Below, piece after piece: positions 1 to 33,985 of a stretch of 42,437 nt of DNA. Each line of letters starts with the position of its first letter. Position 1 is the stretch's first letter. Origin of the DNA: a virus; IMG/VR virus record IMGVR_UViG_3300025806_004450, positions 1-42,437 of that record. The stretch is one strand, 5' to 3'. Position numbers and translations under genes: made by a program. A model generated the notes under the pieces. That model was not told the DNA's origin. It did not search any database and worked only from the letters and a program-made list of their open reading frames with translations.

Positions 1-672
1 TCTTAACCATGGAGCGTAATAAGAATCGTTTTGTATACCTAAATAAACACCTTCATCAAATGCATCTCCGTTAATAGTTGCTCTAAATCCAGCTATGGCT
101 GCATTTCCAACCGTATCTGTGTTATTTGCAAGATATCCTGTTGCCTTATTATTAGAACCCTCTACATAAAACCCTTCATTATCTGAAACAGGTTTAACTC
201 GATTTCCAAAATAAGAATTTAAAGGGTTTATTACTGACTCTACTGTTTCAGTAAACCCAGTTAAATATCTACCATCTAAATTAACGCTATATGTACCACC
301 TAATAATCTGTTGAAATCAACTTGACCTGTACTTGTGTTAAACGTAGCACTAGTTGTGTAATCATTTGTTGTTCCACCAGTTGTACCACCAGAAAGTGCA
401 TCAACTTCAACAATTTTACCAGTTATATTATCCCTACCTAATAATTGATATGTACCACCAGAAACGATATTCGGTAAAGCGTTAGGTAATATAAGCCCTC
501 TAGCCCTAATATATTGTAGAGCATCGATATTAATAGTATCACCACTAACATTTTCAGGTATTAAATTATCTGTAACACCAAATGTTGTCGTACCAGATAA
601 TTGTGTATTGGTTAACTGAAATTGTTTTATTTGTCTATTATTTGAATAATCTATTTTTGTGGTAAATGCCAT
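1..672 (-). CDS. Tail fibre protein, N-terminal part (runs off left edge)
   Basis: The gene starts at the ATG complementary to 670-672 and stays open for 224 codons to the window edge, so the 3' end is missing. The N-terminus (MAFTTKIDYSNNRQIKQF) closely matches that of the 3804-residue fibre encoded by 6499-17913 (MSFVTKIDYSNNRQVKQY), suggesting a shared attachment domain. After about 110 residues there is one copy of the family repeat (NDYTTSATFN... then NLDGRYLTGFTE), and then a module beginning VESVINPLNSYFGNRVKP. That module occurs twice in the giant fibre, with very high nucleotide identity in its first part. The gene is therefore a paralogous receptor-binding or side fibre of the same particle. 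It is the last visible gene of the minus-strand block. The phage fibre call is secure; position in the particle is inference. Confidence 0.85.
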   Translation of the reverse strand, partial: MAFTTKIDYSNNRQIKQFQLTNTQLSGTTTFGVTDNLIPENVSGDTINIDALQYIRARGLILPNALPNIVSGGTYQLLGRDNITGKIVEVDALSGGTTGGTTNDYTTSATFNTSTGQVDFNRLLGGTYSVNLDGRYLTGFTETVESVINPLNSYFGNRVKPVSDNEGFYVEGSNNKATGYLANNTDTVGNAAIAGFRATINGDAFDEGVYLGIQNDSYYAPWLR

Positions 673-717
673 ATCTTATATAACCTCGTAAGTTATTATT
701 TTTTAATTAAGTAACTT

Positions 718-1107
718 TTATATAGCGTCATAAGCTAATTTCTCAGGGGCCAATACAGCAGAAATAGCTTCAATTGACGTAAGTATATTATTCTCTATAA
801 AACCTACCCAAGCATCATCACTAGCGGCTTGAACTTCAGCAATGTTACCTGTGTCAGCATAAGTGGCTATTAATATTTTTGCAAGAGGTCTTGTATATCT
901 TTCAGGTTTATTAAGTATCTCCCTACATGTGCTACTAACACGAGATACATAAGTTGTTGATAAGTTATCAACCGCTGTTTTAGTATTTTTGAAAAAATCT
1001 TCACAAGTATTTACTGATACTTGTCCGATATATTCTTCAAAAGTGTAACTTGTTGGGGCTTCTACCCCAGTTAAAATGTCTAATTGTTCTTTAATTGAAA
1101 TTGCCAT
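718..1107 (-). CDS. Hypothetical protein in fibre block (129 aa)
   Basis: A small, mildly acidic protein starting MAISIKEQLDILTGVEAP and ending LAPEKLAYDAI, predicted mostly helical from its composition. I recognise no family. It sits between a 188-residue surface-type protein and the partial fibre gene, on the same strand and with short gaps, so it is probably co-transcribed with the adsorption genes. Fibre chaperones or adaptor proteins often occupy such positions, but no motif here supports that. It contains two cysteines (in VNTCEDFF and SSTCREIL) and no membrane segment. Confidence 0.65.
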   Translation of the reverse strand: MAISIKEQLDILTGVEAPTSYTFEEYIGQVSVNTCEDFFKNTKTAVDNLSTTYVSRVSSTCREILNKPERYTRPLAKILIATYADTGNIAEVQAASDDAWVGFIENNILTSIEAISAVLAPEKLAYDAI

Positions 1108-1124
1108 AATTTTGTTTGTTTTTA

Positions 1125-1157
1125 TTTTACTATTATTTTACTATTATTTTACTATTA
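1125..1157. repeat. Three perfect tandem copies of an 11-bp unit
   Basis: TTTTACTATTA is repeated three times head to tail (1125-1135, 1136-1146, 1147-1157). Read on the minus strand the unit is TAATAGTAAAA. The first copy supplies the TAA stop of the 188-residue gene and the others fill the spacer before the next gene. The array contains stop codons in more than one frame. It most likely grew by slippage in an AT-rich spacer. Confidence 0.9.
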
Positions 1158-1721
1158 ATCGGGCGGGAAACCGCAGAAAATTAACGAGCTTATAACACCA
1201 AGGGATGATACAATAAAGGCATCGTTGCTAATTCGGTACCATTTACCTGCCCCGTTAAAAATGGTAGTCCCACCTGAGTCTATATATACTATTTCTCCGT
1301 TGTTAGCGAATGTATTACCTCCTGATATGTATCTTGTGGTGGTAACAACTTCCCCACAAGCCAATAAAGATGTGGTTCTGCCAATTGAAGACATAGAAAC
1401 TGCTGTAACAGTTGAACATCCCATGACAGTGGCTACAAGACCTGCGTTAGAGAAGTCAAATTGAACAGTGTCAAATGCAGTTGAATCTGTCTGCGGACTC
1501 ATTGGTGACCAAGAATTAGCGACGGGATTTACTAAAGTAGACTTACCCTCTGTAACCCACACAACGTCACCCACAATAGGTAAAGCACTTGACCCGTTGT
1601 GCCACCTTAGCGAAGTAGAAGAACTACCACAAGCATCAAGTTGGCTTATTACAGGGGTTCCCATGTAAAAGGCCGTTAACTCTTTTTCACTCGCTAAAAT
1701 TGCGCTCATAAAATCACTCAT
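1155..1721 (-). CDS. Putative tail/surface protein (188 aa)
   Basis: The protein is rich in Ser, Thr, Gly and Val with alternating beta-type patterns (for example SSTSLRWHNGSSALPIVGDVVW and NNGEIVYIDSGGTTIFNGAG), like receptor-facing domains of phage fibres and adhesins. Four spaced cysteines (DACGSS, VMGCST, LLACGE, IFCGF) and the C-terminal CGFPPD are notable. No catalytic motif and no signal peptide are seen. It lies in the minus-strand fibre block, 11 bp after the nucleotidyltransferase-like gene. A small tail-tip or fibre-associated protein is the best guess, from composition and context only. Confidence 0.6.
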   Translation of the reverse strand: MSDFMSAILASEKELTAFYMGTPVISQLDACGSSSTSLRWHNGSSALPIVGDVVWVTEGKSTLVNPVANSWSPMSPQTDSTAFDTVQFDFSNAGLVATVMGCSTVTAVSMSSIGRTTSLLACGEVVTTTRYISGGNTFANNGEIVYIDSGGTTIFNGAGKWYRISNDAFIVSSLGVISSLIFCGFPPD

Positions 1722-1732
1722 AATTATAAATT

Positions 1733-2110
1733 TTAAATAAGTTTGGGTACTGTTTGTTTTGATAAATACTCAGAGTCAGTCTCTATGATACTAATATCTA
1801 AATAAAAATCATCCCATATGTGAACAGTATACACTACTCTATTATTTGCTCTAAAAAAATCTACTATTGTAGGTATCTTAAATCCGTCTTCTGGTATGTT
1901 TAAACACGCCTCTAGGTTCTTAACTAACGTATCAGGCTTTACAGCCTCTTTAGTCCAAGGCATTGCCATTATATCCATGTCGCTTGATAAACTACCGTGT
2001 AACCCTAATTCCCAGCCACAATCCCAAGCGGCTTTTAAAAAATCACTCCACATAGTAGCATAAAATACCGCCTTACCGTTAGTTGTTATTTCACTTCTTA
2101 ATTTTGTCAT
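1733..2110 (-). CDS. Minimal nucleotidyltransferase-like protein (125 aa)
   Basis: Residues 37-51 read GLHGSLSSDMDIMAM. This is the G-S ... D-x-D arrangement (S40, D44, D46) of the DNA polymerase beta-like nucleotidyltransferase fold, in which the two aspartates bind metal. The final part (VYTVHIWDDFYLDISII) could supply the third acidic residue. At 125 residues it is the size of stand-alone minimal nucleotidyltransferases, with no partner domain visible. Substrate unknown: it could act on a nucleotide, a sugar or a protein. It is placed between a glycosyltransferase and a surface-type protein in the fibre block, only 2 bp from the former, so modification of a structural component is conceivable but unproven. 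Confidence 0.6.
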   Translation of the reverse strand: MTKLRSEITTNGKAVFYATMWSDFLKAAWDCGWELGLHGSLSSDMDIMAMPWTKEAVKPDTLVKNLEACLNIPEDGFKIPTIVDFFRANNRVVYTVHIWDDFYLDISIIETDSEYLSKQTVPKLI

Positions 2111-2112
2111 AT

Positions 2113-2757
2113 CTATTGTTCTTCAACAAACTTTTTAAGGTTTGCAATATTTAAGTTATACACATCTTTTCTCCTATAGCACGCTCTGTGCATTGATTGA
2201 AATAGATGAACCATATATGATTCTACTTTACTCCAATCAATTTCTTTGTCCGCTATTTCTGTTAAGTCACCATTAAAATAATTTATATCCCTTACAGGTA
2301 TAACCCACTTGTCTAGGTTAAAATCTACTATTTTTTGATGTAATTTCACATTGTTATTAATAATCTCTCTATTATCTACTAAATAGTTAGTTAGTTCTGA
2401 GTTGATAGGGGTTCTTATTATACTGTTTATAGTGTTAGAGTGCCTACCCGCTAGTATGTACTCTGTTTCGGGTAGTGATTTAAGTATAATATTATCTAAA
2501 TCACTATAAAGTCCTCCATATTTATTTAAAAGTAGCATTCTAAACTCATCAGATAAAAAAGCCACATACGTATTACCGTTGTATGGTATTATTTCGTTTG
2601 CATCCTTCACTATCACATATTCTGGCAAATTAATAATCTCTTCATAACACCACATGACACAAGTATACCCTAACTTGTGAAAAGAATAAATAGATAATAG
2701 GTTGAAATCATTTAGTTTGTTCAACCTTGCAAAATAAAAATTAACTTCCTTGTCCAT
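2113..2757 (-). CDS. GT32-like glycosyltransferase with DXD motif
   Basis: Residues 69-89 contain SDEFRMLLLNKYGG followed by LYSDLDN. This is the signature of the Gly_transf_sug/GT32 group, in which the D86-x-D88 pair binds the metal and nucleotide-sugar. The length (214 aa) is on the short side for a single GT-A domain. The start codon lies inside the last codons of the 1232-residue fibre gene (17-bp overlap), so translation is probably coupled to the fibre. That coupling suggests a fibre-directed or receptor-mimicking sugar transfer, although host-glycan modification is equally possible. Donor and acceptor cannot be told from sequence. Confidence 0.8.
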   Translation of the reverse strand: MDKEVNFYFARLNKLNDFNLLSIYSFHKLGYTCVMWCYEEIINLPEYVIVKDANEIIPYNGNTYVAFLSDEFRMLLLNKYGGLYSDLDNIILKSLPETEYILAGRHSNTINSIIRTPINSELTNYLVDNREIINNNVKLHQKIVDFNLDKWVIPVRDINYFNGDLTEIADKEIDWSKVESYMVHLFQSMHRACYRRKDVYNLNIANLKKFVEEQ

Positions 2758-5700
2758 AAACTAATACTAATGATGTGTCAAATCTTTTATATGTTATTGT
2801 GCTATAAGACCCAGAAGTTGAGTTTATAGCTGTTGTGGAGCCAATAGTTCTTGGGGTTAATCCAGTACTAGCGATAGTTGGTGTGTTATTACCGCCATTG
2901 ATAATTAAAATTGTACCAGAGGCTCCGTCAGGTATACTAGAAATGGTAATAGTAACGCTAGAGTTAAGGTTGATAAAAGCACACCCACCTAGCCTCCAAT
3001 CAAGCGTGATGTTAGCTGTTATTGTTTGCTGACTACCATATTGAGAGTTACCTTTTTGTCCCTCAAATGAATTTCTTTTTAAATTGTGGCCAGTGGTATT
3101 CATTATTATTTCTGGTCTATTATGTTCTCCATACCCAATAGCCCCCGTTCCATTTGTAACTGTATGAGCTGTCCATGGCTCTAATAATAGTGGTTTCTCT
3201 AAGTCAATATTATATGTGTTAACTTGACCAAAACCACCAAAAGACCCGTTATTGTTATATTGTATGTCACCATTAACTCCACCAGGGTTACCACTACCAA
3301 TAACTAATGATTCTATCTTATCCCATACCGCATTTCTTGTTGGGACTTGGGGTGAACCATTCCAAGTCCCACCATAGGCTAAATCAGGGACACTAATTCC
3401 ACTAGAATTTACTGTAATTGCTAAGCTTCCTGGAGTTGCTGAACTTGAAGAGAATAACCCATCAGAAGCAGATGTTTGTGCTACATTATTAACATATATA
3501 CTAAAATTTTTTGGTACTGATAATGATGTTACACCACCACCATTAGAACTTGTAATTTGTGATGTCTCTAACCAAGTTCTTGCTCTAGCACCTCCACCTG
3601 TAAAGTGGTTAGGTACATCTATATCAAAACCTGCTCTTGGTGCCCCTGCTGATGGATTACTATTTGTATTTTTAATTTTTAAAAATGCCCTTTGGTCAGA
3701 GCCTGCTTTAAACTCTGCTACTGGTTGTTCCCCACTAGCATATGAAGTTGAAGGTCCCTGTAATGATAACTTATAGTTAGGTATAGAAGTTCCGATACCT
3801 ATATCCCCACTTGAGGTGATTTTTAAATGTGAGTCAGTAACATTTTCAAATGCAGTTGCACTTGTTACACCAGCTGTAAATGCTATTGGTTTAGATGAAA
3901 TCATTAATGCTGTACCATTAGCATCAAGATTTGTATTGGCTTGTAACCCCCATTTAGCTGCATAATTAGCTCCTTCTCTTACTGTTATGTACTTAGTTGC
4001 ATAAGTACTATTACCTAATGTCATTACTTCACCACTAGCTTGAGATGTAAATATATTACCAAAAACTTCTAGTTCAGAACTAGGGTCAGTAACTCCTATA
4101 CCTACATTACCGTTTCCTAGTATAGTCATTTTTACATTAGTTCCAGTTGTATCGACAGAATTTGTAACAAATGCTATATCTCCTTGAGATGCTAATGAAA
4201 GAGTAGTTGATTCAAATAAATTTATAGCTCCAACAATAGTGCCGTCATCCACAAAATCTATTTTAGCAGAACCATCTGTATTGCCTGAATCTATTCTCAG
4301 TAGTCCAGTATTCCCAGCAGTTCCAAATCCTTTTATATGTAGTTTAGTACTAGGAGCAGTTGTACCTATTCCTACATTTCCGCCGCCCATTGCAATTACT
4401 ACATCATCAGCTACGTAATTATTTAAACGTAATTGTTGACCGTTTGAATCAATCATCATATAGCCATCGTTAATTGCTTTTATTGATGAAAATCCCGAAG
4501 CTCTTGATATAGATAATTTTGCGTTTGGACTAGTTGTTCCTATACCCACATTACCACCTGGTTCAATTGTTACAGCCTGTGTGTCCAAATACCCAGAAGT
4601 TCCACCAATTCTTACTTCACCATCATCCTTAAAAAATAAAGGTACTTTAAGCGATACTTTATCATATAAATAGAAGTTGGATGTACCATCTCCCGCAAAA
4701 TCTATACCCGTAGTCCACTTATCTGTACTATTATGTGAAAAGATAATACTAGATTGCCTGTTTGAAGTATTGTTAAGTATTAATCCATTATACTGTGAAC
4801 CACCTTCAATTTTAACAACTTCTTCAGTTCCAGAAGCAGCAGTTCCTTTAACATGTAGTTTATGTATAGGAATAGGGGTTCCTATACCTACATTTGTACC
4901 ATTATCATATATAAGTGAATTACCTTGTGCAGTTGTACTTGTCCATTTAGAAACATAGTTCGTAGTTCCTGTTCCTGTAGAGAAAGCTGTAGAATTAAAA
5001 GCATTGCTACCTAACTCTCTTGTACCAACAACTCCACTGCCATTAATCATTAGAGATGTGTTTTCAGAGGCTTGAGTAGCTACAGTTGACATTGTAACTG
5101 TGTTATTGAGGGCTATACCTCCTGTTGTAGATGCTGATGACCCTAAATTAATAGTAAATGACCCATTAGAAGGTGTTCCAGTACCAATATTTATAGTTTT
5201 AGTGGATGTTGTATTTGCTTCTGTAAATAAATTATACGTTGAACTCACAGTGCCGTCGACCCCATGTCCCATTGTAAAAGAGGTTGGGGTTTTTAGAGTT
5301 CCCGTACTACTATCAAAAGTCCAATTTGCATTATATTCAAAATCAGTTCCACCAGCATTCATAAATGGAATTTGGCTAACTGTACCATATCCTAAACCTA
5401 TTTCAGCTAAAGTCCAAGTAACAGGAGTACTACCATCCACTGATTTACCAGTATTACCGATTGTTAAAATTCTAGGTGTTGTCCAAGTATCCGCATTAGG
5501 GTGGTATGCATCATGAAAAATATTATTACCACCATATGTGAATGTATTAGCATTCATTATAATAGTATGTCTAGTAGCCCAATTTGCTACATTACTTCCA
5601 GTGTTAGAGTAAATATAAAGCCCTTCTTCTGCACCCACTTGTACAGCTTCTAATGAATTTGAAGCATTAGCTGACATTTGAGCATACCACTCTCCAGCAC

Positions 5701-6439
5701 CAATACCAGTTGACCCGTTATTCCCAAGTATAACACCTTCAAGACCCCAAGAAAGGAGCATAGCTTTATTATCTTCTCTTCTATATTCATCATTTCTTAT
5801 AGAAGTAGTTACTGTTAATGTTCCAGTAAGTGTATCTGTTATATTTAATAAGTATTTACCGTCTGTGGTGGCAGAAAACGCTTGTATTTTATTATAAATA
5901 GCGTTTTTTGTAGGGACTTCTAAGTTACCAATCCAAGAAGCACCATAAATTTCATCTTGGGTTTCCATTCCCGCAGAAGTGAAAGTTGCAACAGGGATAT
6001 TAGAAACAACCATATCCACTTCATTATTACTTACCGAACCAATCTTTAAAATACTTGTATTCCAGTAAAAAGCACCATCTAAAGTAGCGTTATTACTTTG
6101 AAATCTTATTCCACCACCTCTAGTGTTATCTCCTGAACCTCCTTTAATTAAAAGACTGTTTATATTTGCCCCAATTGCACCAAACTGAACACTAAAAGCT
6201 TCATTATGTTCAATTTGGTTAGCAGTGGTAGAACCATAAGCTAACCTTTGATTCGATGCGGAACCACTAATATATGTTGTTGAGTCTAAAGTACCATCAC
6301 CTTTAACAAATTGATTGTCGAGACCATCAACTGTTATAAATGCTGGTGATGTTGTATTTCCACTAACATTTAAGTAACTCTGTACCGTGGAACCAGATTT
6401 AGATATAAATCCGTTACGTATATTAAATTCGTTTGCCAT
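2741..6439 (-). CDS. Large tail fibre protein with GNVGIGT stalk repeats
   Basis: A 1232-residue beta-rich, Ser/Thr/Asn/Gly-rich protein. From about residue 510 to 890 it carries five spaced motifs of the type G-N-V-G-I-G-T-x-x-P-x-x-K-L, typical of long phage and Bacteroidota surface stalks. A motif VPTxNAxxxKI occurs twice (near residues 190 and 1040). Around residue 90 a GANINSLLIKGG...RGGGIRF module, and further on a LMINGSGVVGTREL motif, are also present in the 3804-residue fibre, so the two genes have exchanged or inherited modules. The C-terminus (TYKRFDTSLVLVYGQGS) is compact, and I do not see an intramolecular chaperone endosialidase domain. It is probably a trimeric fibre or baseplate-attached spike. 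Confidence 0.85.
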   Translation of the reverse strand: MANEFNIRNGFISKSGSTVQSYLNVSGNTTSPAFITVDGLDNQFVKGDGTLDSTTYISGSASNQRLAYGSTTANQIEHNEAFSVQFGAIGANINSLLIKGGSGDNTRGGGIRFQSNNATLDGAFYWNTSILKIGSVSNNEVDMVVSNIPVATFTSAGMETQDEIYGASWIGNLEVPTKNAIYNKIQAFSATTDGKYLLNITDTLTGTLTVTTSIRNDEYRREDNKAMLLSWGLEGVILGNNGSTGIGAGEWYAQMSANASNSLEAVQVGAEEGLYIYSNTGSNVANWATRHTIIMNANTFTYGGNNIFHDAYHPNADTWTTPRILTIGNTGKSVDGSTPVTWTLAEIGLGYGTVSQIPFMNAGGTDFEYNANWTFDSSTGTLKTPTSFTMGHGVDGTVSSTYNLFTEANTTSTKTINIGTGTPSNGSFTINLGSSASTTGGIALNNTVTMSTVATQASENTSLMINGSGVVGTRELGSNAFNSTAFSTGTGTTNYVSKWTSTTAQGNSLIYDNGTNVGIGTPIPIHKLHVKGTAASGTEEVVKIEGGSQYNGLILNNTSNRQSSIIFSHNSTDKWTTGIDFAGDGTSNFYLYDKVSLKVPLFFKDDGEVRIGGTSGYLDTQAVTIEPGGNVGIGTTSPNAKLSISRASGFSSIKAINDGYMMIDSNGQQLRLNNYVADDVVIAMGGGNVGIGTTAPSTKLHIKGFGTAGNTGLLRIDSGNTDGSAKIDFVDDGTIVGAINLFESTTLSLASQGDIAFVTNSVDTTGTNVKMTILGNGNVGIGVTDPSSELEVFGNIFTSQASGEVMTLGNSTYATKYITVREGANYAAKWGLQANTNLDANGTALMISSKPIAFTAGVTSATAFENVTDSHLKITSSGDIGIGTSIPNYKLSLQGPSTSYASGEQPVAEFKAGSDQRAFLKIKNTNSNPSAGAPRAGFDIDVPNHFTGGGARARTWLETSQITSSNGGGVTSLSVPKNFSIYVNNVAQTSASDGLFSSSSATPGSLAITVNSSGISVPDLAYGGTWNGSPQVPTRNAVWDKIESLVIGSGNPGGVNGDIQYNNNGSFGGFGQVNTYNIDLEKPLLLEPWTAHTVTNGTGAIGYGEHNRPEIIMNTTGHNLKRNSFEGQKGNSQYGSQQTITANITLDWRLGGCAFINLNSSVTITISSIPDGASGTILIINGGNNTPTIASTGLTPRTIGSTTAINSTSGSYSTITYKRFDTSLVLVYGQGS

Positions 6440-6498
6440 ATTTTTAATCCTTTTTCCAACTATCCAAAGGTATTATATATAAATATAAACTTTATTAT

Positions 6499-9400
6499 TT
6501 AAATTCCTCTTATCAATGCTTTTATTATCCAATTATCAGTAGTTACGGTGGCATTTAATCTTAAATCATTACCTGAGATATCAACTGTAAAGCTTACACC
6601 TGAAGTATCACCTAAATCTGAGGTTGATGTGTCAGTATAAGTCACAGATGTTCCATCATGGACTGCCATAACAATACCAGCTCTAAGATTACTACCATTT
6701 TTAACCACATAATCAAAAAATACTGCATCATAACTTAACTTAGAAATTATACCTATAACTTTAGGTGAGCCAGTATCAACATTTACATTTTCCTGGTAAT
6801 CTAACAATGCGTTAGATACATTGAAAGTGGTACCTGTTACTGGTCCAGTTAGCGTCCCACCTGATAATGGTAAATAGACACCATCAATACCCGAATTTGC
6901 TGTGTAGTTATCTGTTAAGTATTCCCTAGTAATTAATACCCTACCAGTAGTTTCATTACTAATTAAGGTTGTTGTTAAACTCGGAACTACAATTGTTCTA
7001 TCCGTGTTTAATAAAAGTACTTTATCTTGGGCTGCTTCTGTGATATTATCACTAGCTGTATTTCCTAATGAAAATACTATATCACCAGTATTATCACCAG
7101 TTGTAATATTTATAGCATTACCGTTAATATGACCACGTTCTCTTAACCAAGGTGCGTAATAATTACTATTCTGTACTCCTACATAAATACCTTTTCCAAA
7201 TGCGTCATTATTAATAACTGCTCTGAATCCTGATAAAGCGGCATTTCCAACCGTATCTGTGTTATTTACAAGGTATCCTGTTGCTTTGTTGAGAGCACTT
7301 TCTACATAAAACCCTTCATTATCTGAAACAGGTTTAACTCGATTTCCAAAATAAGAATCTAAAGGGTTTATTACTGACTCTACGATTTCAGTAAACCCAG
7401 TTAAATATCTATCATCTAAATTAATTGAAACTGTTGAACCTGATTGAAGATTTAAATCTAAATCTCCAGTTAACTCATTAAATGTACCAGAAACTAAATA
7501 ATCGTCAGTTGGTATGTAATCAGTTATTTCAGATATTGTATGTGTATGACCAGTTAATGAATACCTATCATCTAAATTAATAGAAACTGTACTTCCACTT
7601 AATAAATTTAAATCTAAATCACCAGTTAATTCATTAAACGTACCAGAAGTTAAATAATCATCTGTTGGTACATAATCAGTTATTTCGGATATTGTATGAG
7701 TGTGACCTGTGTTAGTTATTTCATTAAAATCATGTGTATGTCCCGTAAGACTATACCTACCATCTAAATCATAAACAACAGTTCCACCTGATAGTCTTGT
7801 TAAAGTCACTTCCCCATTTGCTGGGTTAAAATCACCAGAAATAACATAATTATCTGTATTACTTGCCCCACTAGCTACAAAAGCTCCAGTACCTAACTCC
7901 CTTGTACCAACAACCCCACTCCCATCAATCATCAATGTGATTAATTCATCATTTTGAGTTGACAACGAAGATAGTGTTGCACCACTAGCTCTTATATTAC
8001 CAGTTAAATAGAGTCCATTAGTATCAATACCACCAACAGCAACATTTGTCCTAACAAATTCCCAATCGTGAGCGGTAACGGTACCCATTCTGAATTTATT
8101 ATTTAAAATGTAATTTGCACCAAAAATTGAACCGTCATTATTTTTAAATCCTATACCACCACCTCTAGTTAAATCACCAGCACCTCCATTTATAAATAAA
8201 GTAGTTATATTTGCGCCAAAACCACTGACACTCGTAGTTATTAAACTATTTTGGGCAGTTATATTTCCAAGTACAAACATATCTCCATTACCTGAAAAAT
8301 ACCCATCATCTCTAACTATAAAATTACTATTACCAGCACTATTTTGTATCTCTAGGGGGTACACACTAGCCCCAACGCCTCTTTTAAGTTTTAATGAACC
8401 TCTAGTTGCATCAGTTGTTATCGTTGAAGGTGTAGACGCTTCATATACGCTTTGAAGTGTACTATCAGTCAAATATCTATCATCTAAATTAATGGTAACT
8501 GTACTTCCACTTAATAAATTTAAATCTAAATCACCAGTTAATTCATTAAACGTACCGCTAGTTAAATAATCATCTGATAAACCAATGTGTGTATGAGTTG
8601 TAAGACTATATCTTCCATCAAGGTTAACTGAAACAGTTGAACCTGATTGTAAGGTACTTTCAAATAAACCAGTACTTGTATTAAACGTATGAGTTGTTAA
8701 GTAATCATCCGATAAACCTATATGAGTATGCCCCGTAAGACTATATCTATCATCTAAATTAATTGTAACAGTTGAACCTGACTTAAGATTTAAATCTAAA
8801 TCACCAGTATTTACATCAAAATCACCAGAAACTAAGTAATCATCAGATAAACCAATGTGAGTGTGGTCATCAAGACTATATCTTCCATCTAAATCATAAA
8901 CAATAGTTCCACCACTTAATCTAGTTAAAGTTACTTCTCCATTTGATGTGTTAAATGACCCACTTGATACATAATCATCAGTTGGTATATAATCAGTTAT
9001 TTCAGATATTGTATGAGTATGTCCAGTTAATGAATACCTTCCATCAAGGTTAACTGAAACTGTACTACCACTTTGAAGTGTGCTTTCAAATAAACCAGTA
9101 CTTGTATTAAATGTATGAGTTATTAAGTAATCATCTGATAAACCAATGTGTGTGTGGTCATTAAGACTGTATCTATCATCTAAATTAATAGAAACTGTAC
9201 TTCCACTTAATAAATTTAAGTCTAAATCCCCAGTTAATTCATTAAATGTACCAGAAGTTAAATAATCATCAGTTGGTATATAATCAGTTATTTCAGATAT
9301 TGTATGAGTATGTCCAGTTAATGAATACCTTCCATCTAAATCATAAACAATAGTTCCACCACTTAACCTAGTAAGGGTTACTTCCCCATTTGCTGGATTA

Positions 9401-12400
9401 AATGACCCATCAGTTACGTAATCATTCCTAGATATTTCTTCTAAGTTAATTAAAGTTGTAACATCATTATTTTTTATTTGAGTGATTTCATCAATGTCAT
9501 TACTTGTTACCCCAGATATTAAACCTAAAGGGTAATTTTTCAATCTATAATAATCACTATAAATTACAATATCAGCGTTAGTCGCTTCAATTATCGCTCC
9601 AATATTATCTGCCGTTGATAACCCAAATGAAAAAACATCTGGGGCTGATAGATACGTGGTAACAACAAATCTTTTACCATTTGGTGAAATTTGACATTTC
9701 AAGAAATTACCACTAACAAAATCAAAATCAACTTCAGCACTATAATTACCCAATGTTACAGGGGTTAAATCACCAGCAACAGTTAAATTATATTGCCTTA
9801 AATTTTCACCCGATTGAAACACAAAAAAAGTTTTTAAATCATTAGAGAATGTAAATCCATGAGTCGTGTTAAAATTCCAACTATCCGATAATATTACACC
9901 TGAAAAATTATAAGGTGTTGCTAATGTATATCTCCTTACATTTGACCCAGTGCTAGTATATAAATTTAACCCATCATCCGTCATGAATAATTCATTACGA
10001 AATAAATTTTGTGTGAACGCAGTTGTACTAACTAACGTTAACGAACTTAAATCATGGGGTGTACTCATACTATAAATCTCAACAGTACCATCAGTTACAT
10101 CACCATTAGTATATGTTATGTGTAACCCATCAGGTGATACATGAAGACCCCCACCTTGACCTAAAGTTGCTGTACTAGCAGTTAAAGTTGCGGTTGTAAC
10201 ATCCCAAGGCGTTGATAATATATATTGTGTACAATTACTATTATGTAACCCTAAATATAATATAGTCCCATCACTTGACATTGACAAGGCCATAGGGCTA
10301 CCAGTAAAATCACCCTCACTACCAAAATCTAACATATAATTAGGGATGACTTTAAACCATAAATCTGAATTATCGTCAGTTTTAACATGTGATAAAGCAT
10401 TGATGTATTGAATTACTTGGTCTTTTGTTGACCCAGAACCAATCAAGTCAGTTGGGTAAATGTCAATGGTTTTACTTATCATATTATGAGTATGACCCGT
10501 AAGACTGTATCTATCATCTAAATTAATGGAAACTGTACTTCCACTTAATAAATTTAAATCTAAATCCCCAGTTAATTCATTAAATGTACCACCTGTTAAA
10601 TAATCATCTGTTGGTATATAATCAGTTATTTCAGATATTGTATGTGTATGACCAGTATTAGTTATTTCATTAAAATCATGTGTATGACCTGTTAATGAAT
10701 ATCTCCCATCTAAATTAACTGAAACTGTACTACCACTTTGAAGTGTGCTTTCAAATAATCCAGTGCTTGTATTAAATGTATGGCCAGTTAAGTAATCATC
10801 TGATAAACCGATATGAGTATGACCTGTTGTACTAAATATTTCAGTTAAATTTGTATCACCACTATATATTGTGTCACCACTTATTGAAGTAGCACTGATT
10901 GATATAAATGATGGGGTGTTTGTTATGGTCCAACCTGAAAGCGTGCTATCCCATTGGATAATATCTAAATTACTTTCACTACCACCACTCCAAGTAGTTT
11001 CTTGTAAATCATAAAAGTGTGGGTATCTATGTGGTCTAACAAATACACTACCGTTAGCATCATTATGAATTACAATTGCGAGTTCAATTTTTAAGTTAGG
11101 CGATATAGGTTCGATGTTAGTTAAACCACCAACAATTGTTGGGGAAACCCATAATAAATCACCATCATTCCAAGTTTCACCATAAGGCGCACCAGTTGCG
11201 TTTATACCACGAACTAAACCGAAATCAGTTACATATCCATCATCTCCATTAATAATATCTTCAGTTGCAATTCCCAAGGTATATTTAACTGGAATTGTGC
11301 CATCAGCAATCATATATTCACCAAGAATTTTACCACTAGAACCTAAAGTTCCAGCTGCATAAACAACTCTACCATTCTCAATAGTGGCCCCACTTTGATT
11401 TTTAACGTAATAAAAAAGTTCTTCACCAATTTGTTGTTGTACATTAGAGCCATGCATACCCAAACTTAAAGTACCATTATCTTCATCCCAATATATTCTA
11501 CCTTCAACAATAGTATTACCAGTATATCCAGTGTTAAATTGTATAAAATCAACAGGGTTTATTGTTGTTGCTGAAACATTAACCGCCACAACTTCATTAA
11601 AAATACCAGTACCTGTTACAGTAATGTCACCATTAACAGTTAAACCACTAACAGTGGTTAATGTAACACTTAAATCAGGTAAATCTTCATTTCGTTCAAT
11701 ATCAAACGTATTAGTTAAACCATTATAAGTAAATCCAGTTACAAAAGTATCCGTATAGGCCGAAGTATTTAAATACCTACCATCTAAATCATAAACAACA
11801 GTTCCACCTGAGACCCTAGTAAGAGTTACCTCCCCATTTGCTGTATTAAAATTACCTGAAGTAATATAATCATCTGATAAACCTATATGTGTATGCCCAG
11901 TTAATGAATATCTATCATCTAAATTAACACTATACGTACTTCCACTTAACCTAGTAAATTCTAATTCACCAGTATTTGTATTAAATGTAGTTCCAGTAGT
12001 ATAATCATCCGTTGGTATGTAATCAGTTATTTCAGATATTGTATGAGTATGCCCAGTAAGGCTGTATCTATCATCTAAATTAATTGTAACTGTTGAACCT
12101 GATTGAAGGTTTAAATCTAAATCCCCAGTATTTACATCAAAATCACCAGAAACTAAATAATCATCAGATAAACCAATGTGAGTATGTCCAGTTAGGCTAT
12201 ATCTTCCATCAAGGTTAACTGAAACAGTTGAACCTGATTGTAAGGTACTTTCAAATAAACCAGTTGAAGTATTAAATGTATGAGTTATTAAATAATCATC
12301 TGATAAACCAATATGAGTATGACCTGTTAATGAATATCTACCATCTAAATCATAAACAACAGTTCCACCTGATAATCTAGTTAAAGTCACTTCTCCAGTT

Positions 12401-15400
12401 CCAGTATTAAAATCACCATTTGATACATAATCATCTGTTGGTATATAATCAGTTATTTCGGATATTGTATGAGTATGACCTGTGTTAGTTATTTCATTAA
12501 AATCATGAGTATGCCCCGTAAGACTGTACCTTCCATCAAGGTTTTCAACAATAGTTCCACCTGAGACCCTAGTAAGGGTTAAATCACCATTTGTTGTGTT
12601 GAAATCACTATTTGATACATAATCATCTGATAAACCAATATGTGTATGCCCCGTTAGAGCGTATCTGTCGTCAAGGTTTATGGTAACTGTACTACCTGAT
12701 TGAAGGTTTAAATCTAAATCACCAGTTAATTCATTAAATGTACCACCAGTTAAATAATCATCAGATAAACCAATATGTGTATGTCCAGTAAGACTATATC
12801 TATCATCTAAATTAATAGAAACTGTACTTCCACTTAATAAATTTAAATCTAAATTACCAGTTAATTCATTAAAATCACCAGAAACTAAATAATCATCTGT
12901 ATTTGGCGTTTCAGTAAACCCAGTTAAATATCTATCATCTAAATTAATAGTAACTGTACTACCTGATTGAAGATTTAAATCTAAATTACCAGTATTTACA
13001 TCAAAATCACCAGAAACTAAATAATCATCTGATAAACCAATATGAGTATGTCCAGTTAGGCTATATCTATCATCTAAATTAATGGTAACTGTACTACCTG
13101 ACTGAAGATTTAAATCTAAATCACCAGTATTTACATCAAAATCACCAGAAACTAAATAATCATCAGATAAACCAATATGAGTATGACCTGTTAATGAATA
13201 TCTATCATCTAAATTAATAGAAACAGTTGAACCTGACTGAAGATTTAAATCTAAATCACCAGTTAATTCATTAAATGTACCACTTGTTAAATAATCATCT
13301 GTATTTGGCGTTTCAGTAAACCCAGTTAAATATCTACCATCTAAATCAACGGTAATATTATTATCATCACCAACATCATGTAATGTTAAAACACCGTCAC
13401 CCGTATTAAATGTCGCACCTGTAATTGAGTTATCATAAGCTATATCCCAATTAGTTGAATTATCAGTAAAATCAGTTATATCAGATATCTCATGCGTATG
13501 TCCCGTAAGACTGTACCTATCATCTAAATTAATTGTAACTGTACTACCAGATAATAAATTTAAATCCAATTCACCAGTACTTGTATTAAAAGTACCGCCA
13601 GTTAAATAATCATCAGATAAACCTACATGTGTATGTCCAGTTAATGAATATCTTCCATCAAGGTTGACCGAAACAGTGCTTCCACTTTGAAGTGTACTTT
13701 CAAATAAACCAGTTGAAGTATTAAATGTATGACCTGTTAAGTAATCATCTGATAAACCAATATGAGTATGCCCCGTAAGACTATATCTATCATCTAAATT
13801 AACACTATACGTATTACCGCTTAACCTAGTAAATTCTAATTCACCAGTATTTGTATTAAATGTAGTTCCAGTAGTATAATCATCCGTTGGTATGTAATCA
13901 GTTATTTCAGATATTGTATGAGTATGCCCAGTAAGGCTGTATCTATCATCTAAATTAATTGTAACCGTTGAACCTGATTGAAGGTTTAAATCTAAATCCC
14001 CAGTACTTACATTAAATGTACCACCTGTTAAATAATCATCTGTATTTGGTGTTTCAGTAAACCCAGTTAAATATCTATCATCTAAATTAATAGTAACCGT
14101 TGAGCCTGATTGAAGATTTAAATCTAAATCACCAGTTAATTCATTAAATGTACCACCTGTTAAATAATCATCTGATAAACCAATATGAGTATGTCCTGTT
14201 AGGCTATATCTATCATCAAGGTTTATTGTAACTGTACTTCCAGATAATAAATTTAAATCTAAATCACCAGTTAATTCATCAAAATCACCAGAAACTAAAT
14301 AATCATCTGTATTTGGTGTTTCAGTAAATCCAGTTAAATATCTACCATCTAAATCTTCGGTTATTGTATCACCTGATAATGTTCTTAACGTTAATTCACC
14401 ATTTAAAGTGTTAAATGTCATTCCTGTAACTACGTCACCTGAACCACCTACACCACCTGTACTATCAGTGAAATTAGCTGTTAAGGTACTACCATCTTTT
14501 TGTTGAAGAGTTATAGTTTTAGTTGCACTACCCGTAACAGTCATCCCAGTAATTGAATCATTGTATGCTGTATCCCAATTACTTGTATCACCAGAAGTGA
14601 AACCTAAATCAGTATTATATGTTCCACCACTTAACCTAGTAAATTCAATAATACCACTTGAAGGGTTAAATGTAGTTCCAGTAGTATAATCATCACCAGT
14701 TGTAGCTGATAATGGCAAATACCTACCATCAAGGTTAACTGAAACTGTACCACCTGATTGTAATGTACTTTCAAATAAACCATTTGAAGTGTTAAATGTA
14801 TGGTCAGTTAAATAATCATCTGATAAACCAATATGAGTATGCCCCGTTAGAGCGTATCTGTCGTCAAGGTTTATTGTAACTGTACTTCCAGATAATAAAT
14901 TTAAATCTAAATCACCAGTTAATTCATTAAATGTACCACCTGTTAAATAATCATCTGTATTTAATATGGTTGAAGCTGAGATAGTTAAATATCTACCATC
15001 TAAATCAACGTTATATGTATCACCACTTAATCTAGTAAATTCAATAATACCATCAGAGGTGTTAAATGTAGCCCCAGTGGTGTAATCATCTGATAAGCCG
15101 ATATGAGTGTGTCCAGTAAGACTATATCTACCATCAAGGTTTTCAACAATAGTTCCACCTGATAATCTAGTTAATGTTAAATCACCAGTACTTACATTAA
15201 ATGTAGTTCCAGTGATGTAATCATCAGTATTAATAGTATCCCCTGAACTTGCCGTGTAGTTATCTGTTAAGTATTCCCTAGTAATTAATACCCTACCAGT
15301 AGTTTCATTACTAATTAAGGTTGTTGTTAAACTTGGTACCACTATTGTTCTATCGGTATTCAATAAAAGAACTTTATCTTGTTGACCTTCAGTTATTTGA

Positions 15401-17913
15401 TTAGTTGCTGTGTTCCCTAATGAGAATACTATATCCCCAGTATTATCACCAACCATTATATTTAGGTTCTTACCTGTAATAAGACCATGCGCTCTTAACC
15501 ATGGTGCAAAATAAGAATCATTTGGAATACCTATATAGACACCCTCATTGAATGCATCTCCATTAACAGTTGCTCTATAACCTGATATTGCAGCATTACC
15601 TACCGTATCTGTATTATTTACAAGATATCCTGTTGCCTTATTATTAGAACTCTCTACATAAAATCCTTCATTATCTGAAACAGGTTTAACTCGATTTCCA
15701 AAATAAGAATTTAAAGGGTTTATTACTGACTCTACTGTTTCAGTAAACCCAGTTAAATACCTACCATCTAAATTAACACTTACTGTACCACCTGATTGTA
15801 ATGTACTTTCAAATAAACCAGTACTTGTATTAAATGTATGACCTGTTATGTAATCATCTGTATTTGGTGTTTCAGTAAAACCAGTTAAATATCTATCATC
15901 AAGGTTTATGGTAACAGTTGAACCTGATTGAAGGTTTAAATCTAAATCACCAGTACTTGTATTAAATGTACCACCTGTTAAGTAATCATCAGATAAACCA
16001 ATATGAGTATGTCCTGTTAATGAATATCTATCATCTAAATTAACACTATATGTATCACCACTTAACCTAGTAAATTCTAATTCACCAGTATTTGCATTAA
16101 ATGTAGTTCCAGTAGTATAATCATCATCAGTTGTAGCTGATAATGGTAAATATCTTCCATCTAAATTAACTGAAACCGTTGAACCTGATTGTAAGGTACT
16201 TTCAAATAAACCATTTGAAGTGTTAAATGTATGGTCAGTTAAATAATCATCTGTATTTGGTGATTCAGTAAACCCAGTTAAATACCTTCCATCAAGGTTT
16301 TCAACAATAGTTCCACCTGAGACCCTAGTAAGGGTTAAATCACCATTTGTTGTGTTGAATGTTACCCCACTTAAATAATCATCTGTATTTGGTGTTTCAG
16401 TAAACCCAGTCAAATATCTATCATCAAGGTTTATGGTAACTGTACTACCTGACTGAAGATTTAAATCTAAATCACCAGTTAATTCATTAAATGTACCACC
16501 TGTTAAATAATCATCTGTATTTGGTGTTTCAGTAAATCCAGTCAAATATCTATCATCTAAATTAATAGAAACTGTACTTCCTGATTGAAGGTTTAAATCT
16601 AAATCACCAGTACTTACATTAAATGTACCACCTGTTAAATAATCATCTGTATTTGGTGTTTCAGTAAATCCAGTTAAATATCTATCATCAAGGTTTATTG
16701 TAACTGTACTTCCTGATTGAAGGTTTAAATCTAAATCACCAGTACTTACATTAAATGTACCACCTGTTAAATAATCATCTGATAAACCAATATGAGTATG
16801 TCCAGTAAGACTATATCTATCATCTAAATTTTCAGTTATTGTCGAACCTGATAATGTTCTTAATTCTAAATCACCATTTAAAGTGTTGAATGTCATTCCT
16901 GTAACTACATCACCTGAACCACCACCTGCATTATCAGTGAAATTAGCCGTTAAGGTACTACCATCTTTTTGTTGAAGAGTAATAGTTTTAGAAACCGTAC
17001 CAGTTACAGTTATCCCAGTAATAGAGTCATCATAAGCTATATCCCAATTACTTGTATCACCAGAAGTGAAACCTAAATCAGTATTATATGTTCCACCACT
17101 TAACCTGGTAAATTCAATAATACCACTTGATGAGTTAAATGTAGTTCCAGTAGTATAATCATCACCAGTTGTAGCTGATAATGGCAAATACCTACCATCT
17201 AAATTAGTGGTTATTGAATCACCTGAAACCGTTGTAATAATTAATTCACCAGTTGTTGCACTAAAAGTGGCACCAGTTATGAAATTATCTGTTGTAATCG
17301 CACTAAATTCAACTTCATATATATCACCAAGCTCATCCCTTGTTAAAACGGTTGTTACGCCAGTTAAAGAATCTGGTTTATCAGCTAAAATTAATCGTTT
17401 TGTTCTTGTAATCCCTAAAACGTCAACCCAGATAGTTCTATCAGTAAAATCTGCCGATTCACCACTTAATATTAATATATTATTACTGATAGTTTCACCA
17501 GTCCATTCTTGAACACCAACCTCTTCAATTGAAGTTACTGTAAAATCATATGAAGAACCCGTATATGCGCTATATATTGTATTACCATCAATAAGGTAAG
17601 GTCCAATTCCTTGAAATCCAAACCCATTTTGTGTATCACCTGAAGTTGAATCTGTTATTGCAACTAAAGTAATTGCACCTGAACCCATCCTAGAATCACC
17701 AAAAGTGATATTAGTTGTGTCAGAATTACCAGAAAAAGTAGAGACAATATTAATTAAAGTACTAGTTGTTGTAATAGAGGAATTTAAAACCCCACCAGTG
17801 AGCCCACTATAATGCACACCAAAGTCTGTTGACCCAGAGAGTTGTGTGTTAGTTGATTCATATTGTTTTACTTGTCGGTTATTTGAATAATCTATTTTAG
17901 TTACAAAAGACAT
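6499..17913 (-). CDS. Giant repetitive tail fibre protein (3804 aa)
   Basis: A single open frame of 11.4 kb. The N-terminus MSFVTKIDYSNNRQVKQY matches the partial fibre at 1-672. Most of the protein consists of about 45 copies (counted on LD[DG]RY) of a ~42-residue repeat: DDYLTGGTFN...TGDLDLNLQSGSTVTINLDDRY, joined by linkers LTGFTETPNT or SLTGHTHIGLS. The linker HTH resembles the HxH metal sites of T4 long-tail-fibre needles. Non-repeat modules interrupt the array: VESVINPL modules at about residues 720-890 and 3507-3672, a GEELFYYVKNQSGATIENG phage-structural module at ~2050-2345, a beta-propeller-like region at ~2480-2775, and a RGGGIGFKNNDG module at ~3160-3345. The last ~130 residues form a separate C-terminal domain. 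It is probably trimeric and very long. The start lies next to the divergent promoter region. Confidence 0.88.
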   Translation of the reverse strand: MSFVTKIDYSNNRQVKQYESTNTQLSGSTDFGVHYSGLTGGVLNSSITTTSTLINIVSTFSGNSDTTNITFGDSRMGSGAITLVAITDSTSGDTQNGFGFQGIGPYLIDGNTIYSAYTGSSYDFTVTSIEEVGVQEWTGETISNNILILSGESADFTDRTIWVDVLGITRTKRLILADKPDSLTGVTTVLTRDELGDIYEVEFSAITTDNFITGATFSATTGELIITTVSGDSITTNLDGRYLPLSATTGDDYTTGTTFNSSSGIIEFTRLSGGTYNTDLGFTSGDTSNWDIAYDDSITGITVTGTVSKTITLQQKDGSTLTANFTDNAGGGSGDVVTGMTFNTLNGDLELRTLSGSTITENLDDRYSLTGHTHIGLSDDYLTGGTFNVSTGDLDLNLQSGSTVTINLDDRYLTGFTETPNTDDYLTGGTFNVSTGDLDLNLQSGSTVSINLDDRYLTGFTETPNTDDYLTGGTFNELTGDLDLNLQSGSTVTINLDDRYLTGFTETPNTDDYLSGVTFNTTNGDLTLTRVSGGTIVENLDGRYLTGFTESPNTDDYLTDHTFNTSNGLFESTLQSGSTVSVNLDGRYLPLSATTDDDYTTGTTFNANTGELEFTRLSGDTYSVNLDDRYSLTGHTHIGLSDDYLTGGTFNTSTGDLDLNLQSGSTVTINLDDRYLTGFTETPNTDDYITGHTFNTSTGLFESTLQSGGTVSVNLDGRYLTGFTETVESVINPLNSYFGNRVKPVSDNEGFYVESSNNKATGYLVNNTDTVGNAAISGYRATVNGDAFNEGVYIGIPNDSYFAPWLRAHGLITGKNLNIMVGDNTGDIVFSLGNTATNQITEGQQDKVLLLNTDRTIVVPSLTTTLISNETTGRVLITREYLTDNYTASSGDTINTDDYITGTTFNVSTGDLTLTRLSGGTIVENLDGRYSLTGHTHIGLSDDYTTGATFNTSDGIIEFTRLSGDTYNVDLDGRYLTISASTILNTDDYLTGGTFNELTGDLDLNLLSGSTVTINLDDRYALTGHTHIGLSDDYLTDHTFNTSNGLFESTLQSGGTVSVNLDGRYLPLSATTGDDYTTGTTFNPSSGIIEFTRLSGGTYNTDLGFTSGDTSNWDTAYNDSITGMTVTGSATKTITLQQKDGSTLTANFTDSTGGVGGSGDVVTGMTFNTLNGELTLRTLSGDTITEDLDGRYLTGFTETPNTDDYLVSGDFDELTGDLDLNLLSGSTVTINLDDRYSLTGHTHIGLSDDYLTGGTFNELTGDLDLNLQSGSTVTINLDDRYLTGFTETPNTDDYLTGGTFNVSTGDLDLNLQSGSTVTINLDDRYSLTGHTHTISEITDYIPTDDYTTGTTFNTNTGELEFTRLSGNTYSVNLDDRYSLTGHTHIGLSDDYLTGHTFNTSTGLFESTLQSGSTVSVNLDGRYSLTGHTHVGLSDDYLTGGTFNTSTGELDLNLLSGSTVTINLDDRYSLTGHTHEISDITDFTDNSTNWDIAYDNSITGATFNTGDGVLTLHDVGDDNNITVDLDGRYLTGFTETPNTDDYLTSGTFNELTGDLDLNLQSGSTVSINLDDRYSLTGHTHIGLSDDYLVSGDFDVNTGDLDLNLQSGSTVTINLDDRYSLTGHTHIGLSDDYLVSGDFDVNTGNLDLNLQSGSTVTINLDDRYLTGFTETPNTDDYLVSGDFNELTGNLDLNLLSGSTVSINLDDRYSLTGHTHIGLSDDYLTGGTFNELTGDLDLNLQSGSTVTINLDDRYALTGHTHIGLSDDYVSNSDFNTTNGDLTLTRVSGGTIVENLDGRYSLTGHTHDFNEITNTGHTHTISEITDYIPTDDYVSNGDFNTGTGEVTLTRLSGGTVVYDLDGRYSLTGHTHIGLSDDYLITHTFNTSTGLFESTLQSGSTVSVNLDGRYSLTGHTHIGLSDDYLVSGDFDVNTGDLDLNLQSGSTVTINLDDRYSLTGHTHTISEITDYIPTDDYTTGTTFNTNTGELEFTRLSGSTYSVNLDDRYSLTGHTHIGLSDDYITSGNFNTANGEVTLTRVSGGTVVYDLDGRYLNTSAYTDTFVTGFTYNGLTNTFDIERNEDLPDLSVTLTTVSGLTVNGDITVTGTGIFNEVVAVNVSATTINPVDFIQFNTGYTGNTIVEGRIYWDEDNGTLSLGMHGSNVQQQIGEELFYYVKNQSGATIENGRVVYAAGTLGSSGKILGEYMIADGTIPVKYTLGIATEDIINGDDGYVTDFGLVRGINATGAPYGETWNDGDLLWVSPTIVGGLTNIEPISPNLKIELAIVIHNDANGSVFVRPHRYPHFYDLQETTWSGGSESNLDIIQWDSTLSGWTITNTPSFISISATSISGDTIYSGDTNLTEIFSTTGHTHIGLSDDYLTGHTFNTSTGLFESTLQSGSTVSVNLDGRYSLTGHTHDFNEITNTGHTHTISEITDYIPTDDYLTGGTFNELTGDLDLNLLSGSTVSINLDDRYSLTGHTHNMISKTIDIYPTDLIGSGSTKDQVIQYINALSHVKTDDNSDLWFKVIPNYMLDFGSEGDFTGSPMALSMSSDGTILYLGLHNSNCTQYILSTPWDVTTATLTASTATLGQGGGLHVSPDGLHITYTNGDVTDGTVEIYSMSTPHDLSSLTLVSTTAFTQNLFRNELFMTDDGLNLYTSTGSNVRRYTLATPYNFSGVILSDSWNFNTTHGFTFSNDLKTFFVFQSGENLRQYNLTVAGDLTPVTLGNYSAEVDFDFVSGNFLKCQISPNGKRFVVTTYLSAPDVFSFGLSTADNIGAIIEATNADIVIYSDYYRLKNYPLGLISGVTSNDIDEITQIKNNDVTTLINLEEISRNDYVTDGSFNPANGEVTLTRLSGGTIVYDLDGRYSLTGHTHTISEITDYIPTDDYLTSGTFNELTGDLDLNLLSGSTVSINLDDRYSLNDHTHIGLSDDYLITHTFNTSTGLFESTLQSGSTVSVNLDGRYSLTGHTHTISEITDYIPTDDYVSSGSFNTSNGEVTLTRLSGGTIVYDLDGRYSLDDHTHIGLSDDYLVSGDFDVNTGDLDLNLKSGSTVTINLDDRYSLTGHTHIGLSDDYLTTHTFNTSTGLFESTLQSGSTVSVNLDGRYSLTTHTHIGLSDDYLTSGTFNELTGDLDLNLLSGSTVTINLDDRYLTDSTLQSVYEASTPSTITTDATRGSLKLKRGVGASVYPLEIQNSAGNSNFIVRDDGYFSGNGDMFVLGNITAQNSLITTSVSGFGANITTLFINGGAGDLTRGGGIGFKNNDGSIFGANYILNNKFRMGTVTAHDWEFVRTNVAVGGIDTNGLYLTGNIRASGATLSSLSTQNDELITLMIDGSGVVGTRELGTGAFVASGASNTDNYVISGDFNPANGEVTLTRLSGGTVVYDLDGRYSLTGHTHDFNEITNTGHTHTISEITDYVPTDDYLTSGTFNELTGDLDLNLLSGSTVSINLDDRYSLTGHTHTISEITDYIPTDDYLVSGTFNELTGDLDLNLQSGSTVSINLDDRYLTGFTEIVESVINPLDSYFGNRVKPVSDNEGFYVESALNKATGYLVNNTDTVGNAALSGFRAVINNDAFGKGIYVGVQNSNYYAPWLRERGHINGNAINITTGDNTGDIVFSLGNTASDNITEAAQDKVLLLNTDRTIVVPSLTTTLISNETTGRVLITREYLTDNYTANSGIDGVYLPLSGGTLTGPVTGTTFNVSNALLDYQENVNVDTGSPKVIGIISKLSYDAVFFDYVVKNGSNLRAGIVMAVHDGTSVTYTDTSTSDLGDTSGVSFTVDISGNDLRLNATVTTDNWIIKALIRGI
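6893..7395 (-). repeat. Fibre module VESVINPL, copy B
   Basis: Second copy of the module in the same giant gene, close to its C-terminal end. It encodes VESVINPLDSYFGNRVKP and ends LTDNYTANSG. Differences from copy A cluster in the middle (GYRATVNGDAFNEGVYIG against GFRAVINNDAFGKGIYVG and neighbouring residues), while the flanks are nearly identical. Boundaries are approximate. Confidence 0.85.
8460..17215 (-). repeat. Coding repeat array of the giant fibre
   Basis: In-frame tandem repeats of about 125 bp encode the DDY...LDDRY unit. Neighbouring copies differ mainly at synonymous sites and in a few alternating cassettes: LDLNLQSGSTVTIN, LFESTLQSGSTVSVN, LTLTRLSGGTIVEN, LEFTRLSGDTYSVN. The array is broken by unique modules near 15240-15740, 10870-11760 and 9430-10480, and two further copies lie beyond 7870 toward the 3' end. 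The patchwork order of cassettes indicates repeated unequal recombination. Confidence 0.85.
15241..15750 (-). repeat. Fibre module VESVINPL, copy A
   Basis: It encodes VESVINPLNSYFGNRVKP through LLLNTDRTIVVPSLTT to LTDNYTA. Copy B (6893-7395) encodes the same module with few changes, and positions 1-250 encode the first part of a third copy. Stretches such as 15665-15745 are almost base-for-base identical to 180-265. That implies recent duplication or ongoing gene conversion between fibre genes. Boundaries are approximate. Confidence 0.85.
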
Positions 17914-23633: not shown

Positions 23634-23780
23634 TTATATTTTATTATTTTTTTTAAGTAATCTCACTTTATTATATATTGAATGTAATGATTTATTTAAC
23701 TTAATCGCACATTTTGGTCCACCGATAGTTTTATAATTATTTATTAAAAAATCACTTTTAACTTGATTTTTATTATTTAT
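23634..23780 (-). other. Start-less open stretch on minus strand, possible gene remnant
   Basis: Between the truncated copy and the next gene the minus strand is open for 48 codons without an ATG. It ends ...YKTIGGPKCAIKLNK, SLHSIYNKVRLLKK and a TAA abutting the truncated copy's stop. The composition is more protein-like than expected for AT-rich spacer, so it may be the tail of a gene that once sat here. No family recognised; weak evidence. Confidence 0.25.
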
Positions 23781-23792
23781 TTAGTATATTTG
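23763..23792 (+). promoter_or_regulatory. Bacteroidota-type promoter for the glycan operon
   Basis: TTG at 23763-23765 and TATATTTG at 23785-23792 are separated by 19 nt. This matches the Flavobacterium/Bacteroides consensus of a -33 TTG element and a -7 TAnnTTTG element at the optimal spacing. Transcription would start about 7 nt further on, close to the ATG at 23808, leaving a short leader as is common in this phylum. It argues that the host RNA polymerase reads this operon and that the host belongs to the Bacteroidota. Confidence 0.75.
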
Positions 23793-23807
23793 TTTAAAAT
23801 AAAGATT

Positions 23808-26970: not shown

Positions 26971-26971
26971 T

Positions 26972-28325: not shown

Positions 28326-28326
28326 T

Positions 28327-29503: not shown

Positions 29504-29505
29504 TT

Positions 29506-33912: not shown

Positions 33913-33928
33913 TTATGTTTACTTATTC

Positions 33929-33978
33929 ATATTTTTTATTTATATTTAGTTCAAATAAAAAATATAAATAAAAAATAT
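33929..33978. promoter_or_regulatory. AT-only inverted repeat with TATAAATA elements before gmd
   Basis: A 19-bp arm at 33929-33947 and its exact reverse complement at 33960-33978 are separated by 12 nt. The region holds TATAAATA at 33963-33970 and 33976-33983 on the plus strand, and one at 33944-33937 on the minus strand, so it resembles the divergent region near 17918. A late promoter for gmd is possible (the first element is 15 nt before the ATG). Because the arms contain no G or C, a stable RNA hairpin is unlikely, and the symmetry may partly reflect base composition. Confidence 0.4.
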
Positions 33979-33985
33979 AAATAAA

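Follow-up and report, generated by a model that had tools for sequence, protein, structure and literature searches.

A 3804-residue protein encoded at 6499-17913 of the window, i.e., the whole 42,437-nucleotide stretch of viral DNA analyzed here, is most likely a trimeric long tail fibre built of an N-terminal anchor, a repeat shaft with inserted modules, and a C-terminal tip; its trimeric state and the roles of anchor and tip are inferred. It is rather likely that the fibre belongs to a contractile-tailed (myovirus-type) phage and that recombination between its units changes the length of the shaft stepwise between the conserved ends. Unit number very probably varies between near-identical phages.

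The gene is a single open reading frame on the minus strand with an ATG start, the plus strand of the same interval being full of stops. Both the 3804-residue product and the approximately 45 degenerate repeats of the original prediction, which did not give the strand, were recovered: 45 units with the LD[DG]RY motif were counted, against a mean of 0.01 and a maximum of 1 in 200 residue shuffles. The features of the gene and its neighbours are collected in Table 1. Module A is 81% identical to its second copy near the C-terminal end and 90% identical to a copy in the next fibre gene, while the internal repeats of module C, judged by eye, suggest a putative beta-propeller-like fold. The first 33 residues of the big fibre recur, with changes, at the start of the second fibre gene. 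The remaining window genes include PhoH, glycosyltransferases, and sugar-nucleotide genes. A surface-glycan cluster occupies 23763-34984 and comprises glycosyltransferases (families 2, 10, and 11), KAS III, a short-chain dehydrogenase, a DegT-like aminotransferase, and GDP-mannose 4,6-dehydratase; it is partly kept in the related record G004. Yet another glycosyltransferase, with a DXD sugar-binding region (Pfam PF04488), lies between the fibre genes at 2113-2757.

Table 1. Features of the fibre gene and its neighbours in the window.
Feature	Position	Strand	Basis
Complete fibre gene, 3804 aa	6499..17913	-	Single ORF
N-terminal domain and first repeat unit (aa 1-242), probable virion-anchor end	17188..17913	-	Relatives in 78 viral loci among the best 80 of 85 stretches
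Array of 45 LD[DG]RY units (aa 212-3503), broken by longer stretches	7405..17280	-	
Inserted module A (about aa 719-894)	15232..15759	-	Sequence comparison
Inserted module B (aa 2048-2375)	10789..11772	-	70% identity to part of the G004 2361-aa fibre
Inserted module C (aa 2464-2832)	9418..10524	-	46% identity to part of the G004 fibre
Inserted module D (aa 3148-3357)	7843..8472	-	Kin to parts of the adjoining 1232-aa fibre-like protein
Second module A copy (aa 3504-3662)	6928..7404	-	Sequence comparison
C-terminal domain (aa 3663-3804), predicted all-beta	6499..6927	-	Relatives in 34 viral loci
132-nt (44-aa) unit missing from G001	16543..16674	-	Record comparison
1232-aa fibre-like protein, neighbour of the big fibre gene	2741..6439	-	ORF and module D likeness
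Second fibre gene with the same N-terminal start and a module A copy; runs off the window	1..672	-	583 aa in G008

Each unit consists of a linker and a 31-aa core. The commonest unit lengths are 45 aa (14-aa linker plus 31; 19 of the 44 gaps between units) and 44 aa (13 plus 31; nine gaps), followed by 52 aa (five), 64 aa (three), 42 aa (one), and 61 aa (one); the remaining six gaps are filled by longer stretches (94-363 aa), and one more of this kind, the seventh, sits between the last unit and the tip. The unit of about 42 residues proposed originally was therefore set slightly low. The linkers over the 44 gaps are of the HTHIGLS type (18), the GFTE type (nine), HTHTISE (five), double HTHDFNE plus HTHTISE (three), and other short linkers (three), with modules in the remaining six; the GFTE-type unit linkers are confined to the stretch between units 4 and 26. 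An alternation of two linker types, which had also been claimed, gave way to five short-linker classes without strict alternation.

The claimed patchwork order of the array is supported. Linker and core classes combine independently, whether a core is compared with its own linker (permutation p = 0.10, 38 pairs) or with the next one (p = 0.40, 38 pairs), and a PHI-type test on 37 of the 45 units, eight having been dropped because their linker was missing, short, or long, gave 1.062 versus 1.296 +- 0.024, with none of 1000 permutations as low. The test rejects one history for all sites, and it is read as support for recombination rather than proof, because shared selection on the units could lower the index too. 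For the cores alone, 0 of 1000 permutations were as low with a 15-nt window and, more weakly, 37 of 1000 with 30 nt. The similarity of linkers correlates weakly with that of cores (Mantel r = 0.235, p = 0.0065, 37 units; 0.481 within the core), and the similarity of adjacent units (0.643) does not exceed that of the average pair (0.646). Core DNA identity has a mean of 0.646 and a range of 0.333-0.968; with 38 different core sequences in its 45 units, the array is an old and diverged one. Among the exact internal DNA repeats the longest, of 146 nt, joins places 625 aa apart.

Against Pfam PF12789 (PTR, phage tail repeat like) the whole protein scores 58.2 bits versus a curated cut-off of 27, and its relative L073 scores 76.3 bits. 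The likeness to this family lies in the whole-protein score; the fibre is unlike it in that no single stretch is significant alone over most of the 60-position profile: zero stretches pass the E-value limit, and the best of them spans 15 residues, at an HTH linker. The gene context is that of a contractile tail: the overlapping record G008, identical to window 1-16824, holds matches to tail sheath and tail tube families in its leftward extension, and a second fibre gene lies nearby. The pattern of long tail fibres, with a conserved N-terminal end and C-terminal tip and a variable middle, is also present. The predicted structure of the C-terminal domain, highly confident over about residues 46-142, is a beta fold of eight strands. 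It is similar to portions of fibre proteins from cyanophages and other phages in BFVD (best E 2.6e-10) and, additionally, to an Acinetobacter phage tailspike (E 3.7e-4). For four repeat units AlphaFold yielded no usable model (pLDDT 35), which would fit an intertwined trimer, and no match for P0001 or the N-terminus was found among solved structures. Several other candidates were discarded: Pfam Cupin_7 (66.8 bits), Carb_kinase, and DUF4940, PHROG 'glutamine amidotransferase', and NCBIfam SdbBC were repeat-driven or sub-threshold, with zero stretches passing alone, and the designed 'SAKe' propellers among the PDB profile matches were dismissed as chance GHTH matches.

Among the best 80 of the 85 stretches encoding a relative of the N-terminus, the alignment covers 78 viral loci, a number that is not a count of phages because second fibre genes such as L143-L145 are included; near-duplicates are also among them. 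A stop lies inside the locus in 69 of the 78, and the frames from the start of the match range from 37 to 3491 aa (median 639), the shortest, L141, being possibly broken or mis-framed. The tip, with relatives in 34 viral loci, is 57-60% identical in relatives with a different or nearly absent array. Window-type units are found in the fibre of L073 (1950 aa, 17 D[DGN][RK][YF] motifs, 19 HxH) and in that of G004/L075 (2361 aa, 15 such motifs, 10 HxH); the latter also contains a YadA head domain repeat (Pfam PF05658) at aa 1948-1972. In a second lineage, which comprises six records, the N-terminal domain is the same but the repeat is of another type and roughly 60 aa long; FGHIT motifs number 36-41 in the three longest of these records. 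Locus L136 (10001-20546) carries a third repeat type, also of about 60 aa, together with HAEG repeats, in at least 3515 aa, a figure set by the extent of the locus; by eye, the HAEG repeats look like YadA head repeats. Three different repeat types are expanded on one N-terminal chassis, and short relatives with little or no array exist as well, L081 of 268 aa and L074 of 661 aa, the latter with one unit.

The N-terminal tree has 54 rows, 25 others (near-copies, paralogues, and one short row) having been dropped, and it places the window together with the 661-aa L074 (97/83). A long-fibre label, assigned by the analyst from length and array, needs four changes on this tree, three of them forced by supported branches; the test of its clustering was weak, 44 of 500 shuffles being as low. 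Arrays may have been lost as well as gained across the tree. In a collection of 50,697 phage records neither the N-terminus piece nor a composite of repeat units had a match, the C-terminus matched two copies of one uncultured 735-kb phage record, and module C had three weak matches; given only these piecewise matches, the full architecture is seen in no record of the collection. In the 735-kb uncultured phage LR756501.1 a C-terminal fibre domain lies at 119302-119571 (49% identity, 63% query coverage), and this record is also where PhoH has its best match. No relative was found in GTDB contigs searched with the N-terminal alignment.

The original prediction had named strict conservation of repeat number in relatives as evidence against itself, and the number is not conserved in three comparisons. 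Record G001 (26,817 b) corresponds to window 15382-42330 and departs from it only in one substitution (25722) and one exact in-frame 132-nt unit, whose placement in Table 1 is arbitrary, as the deletion can start anywhere in gene nt 1239-1297; the junction sits in a 58-bp exact repeat. The longer form at this site occurs in three covering records (the window, G008, and G009), which may share reads. In the second lineage, the genes of G015 and G016 differ by 528 nt (176 aa, three units) and are otherwise identical, with a flank of 15,643 nt at 100%; a MAFFT solution of 348 plus 180 nt with small gaps was displaced by one 528-nt deletion without a mismatch. Between G013 and G016 the difference amounts to 180 nt (one unit) and 73 substitutions in 9012, the junction sitting in an 82-bp exact repeat. 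Upstream blastn identity to G016 is 100% for G015 and 99.8% for G013.

All arrays derive from metagenome assemblies, and a real shaft could have been given apparent differences in unit number by assembly collapses or chimeras, the array being stable in each lineage. Contigs do start or end within the array (window 16824 is the start of G008 and G009 and 15447 that of G010, and G001 ends at 15382), and the window gene has 13 exact internal repeats of at least 60 nt. At the two deletion junctions covered by the scans, each shortened form occurs in one record, i.e., G001 for the 132-nt unit and G015 for the three-unit deletion (L053 = G015, L054 = G016; fibre gene nt 4929). Moreover, some close pairs agree in unit number where they are shared: L072/L073 (99.993% over 14,383 nt) have the same array over the 1461 aa common to both, and the second-lineage pairs G016/G019, G016/G020, and G013/G021 have no gaps over their shared stretches. 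However, the G001 join lies in 58 bp of identity, below the usual short-read length, and the G015 join, unlike the two other deletions, has no exact homology, which speaks against plain exact-repeat recombination as well as plain k-mer collapse, a process that cannot produce it. All three differences are whole units and in frame, and the span from 661 to 3804 aa within one supported clade is too large for simple collapse. Assembly error is thus an unlikely source of the differences. Still more remote, indeed highly improbable, is the view that the phage uses the protein as an adhesin or in another surface role and not as a virion fibre; glycan-synthesis genes in the same window favour it, but the gene adjoins other fibre genes and tail genes and shares its N-terminal start with the second fibre gene.

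In the favoured reading, attachment to the baseplate is the probable role of the conserved N-terminal domain, and the conserved C-terminal beta domain probably forms the tip, while the shaft between them would consist of the 45 homologous units and the inserted larger modules. Near and distant units share exact DNA stretches of 40-146 bp, so that in-frame recombination would drop or gain whole units and reshuffle linkers, cores, and modules; shaft length would therefore shift in steps, with the frame unbroken and both ends untouched. Unequal recombination is the likely route of the change in unit number. The differences presumably arise during phage growth, and a longer chain would give the fibre a longer reach. 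With the value of 12-20 aa per nm given in PMC3556154, the 3804 aa would correspond to a fibre of about 190-317 nm and a single 44-aa unit to 2.2-3.7 nm. RecA-family matches in two of five related records were under the family cut-off. A broader proposal is finely balanced and tilts slightly towards the doubtful side: one chassis would have been lengthened repeatedly and independently, with different repeat units, to more than 3400 aa, the repeats serving as recombination sites of a tunable-length fibre into which modules are spliced, even within one population, with a metal staple in most units of one version. In this proposal the anchor is conserved across the phage group and the tip in part of it. 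It could also be that repeat number is neutral and the expansion a by-product of repetitive DNA, without selection on length or reach, a possibility of some weight that we nevertheless do not favour. The short relatives L081 and L074, with little or no array, agree with it, but three repeat types have been expanded on the same chassis and every observed unit-number change preserves the frame and both ends. Furthermore, in-frame tail-fibre duplications are reported for Enterococcus phage EfV12-phi1 from four of four coevolving replicates and never from the phage controls (PMC6365445).

The linkers carry 32 HTH (HxH) motifs in eight synonymous DNA spellings. The counterpart motif LTGFTE was found 11 times, and the half-way forms LTGHTE and LTGFTH were absent from the six-residue motifs counted; such an absence would fit selection for the histidine pair. 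By analogy with the HxH motifs of T4 gp37, the 32 motifs may hold metal ions on the fibre axis. According to PMC11705849, seven iron ions are held by HxH in gp37 and six sites are predicted in gp12 of Alteromonas phage R22Y. The window fibre is like both in its repeated HxH motifs and unlike them in their number and in having no detectable gp37 match: the repeat profile matched six designed propellers and one tail-associated lysin among solved structures, and not T4 gp37. Metal stapling might even be the main point, with up to 32 axial metal ions per fibre serving stability or iron-receptor docking and length being secondary. The maintenance of the motifs as pairs across synonymous spellings, together with the known and predicted iron sites, points in this direction; the lack of a sequence match to gp37 and the long arrays of the second lineage, in which HxH is found in none of the six records, argue against it and make it a quite unlikely primary role. 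Since that lineage combines a similar anchor and tip with an equally long array lacking HxH, metal is dispensable for a long fibre.

Known systems offer parallels to a long tail fibre of variable unit number. In EfV12-phi1, in-frame tail-fibre duplications emerged during coevolution and were resolved by long reads (PMC6365445); like the window fibre it has in-frame tandem copies of varying number inside a tail-fibre gene, and unlike it the block is of 1.8 kb and arose in laboratory coevolution, whereas here old, diverged units of 44-45 aa are found in wild phages. The BACON-domain repeats of crAss-like phages (PMC6949934) are likewise tail-associated tandem arrays, recurrent in several lineages and in one of them grown by sequential duplication; they differ in their domain and, for the crAssphage lineage, in being described as a stable array of eight. 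Both repeat-built fibres and in-frame duplications within fibre genes have thus been published before (PMC6365445, PMC6949934). What is distinctive here is the scale, together with the occurrence of three different arrays on a single chassis and of natural variants by one and by three units.

Phages are usually assumed to have a fixed fibre length. Here, genomes that are nearly identical seem to differ by whole units, which would allow a phage to tune its reach through the surface polymer of the host, and also its modules, without mutating anchor or tip. The 32 HxH motifs would make this fibre an extreme case for the proposal of iron in marine phage fibres, and the natural pairs of length variants are material for testing the effect of fibre length.
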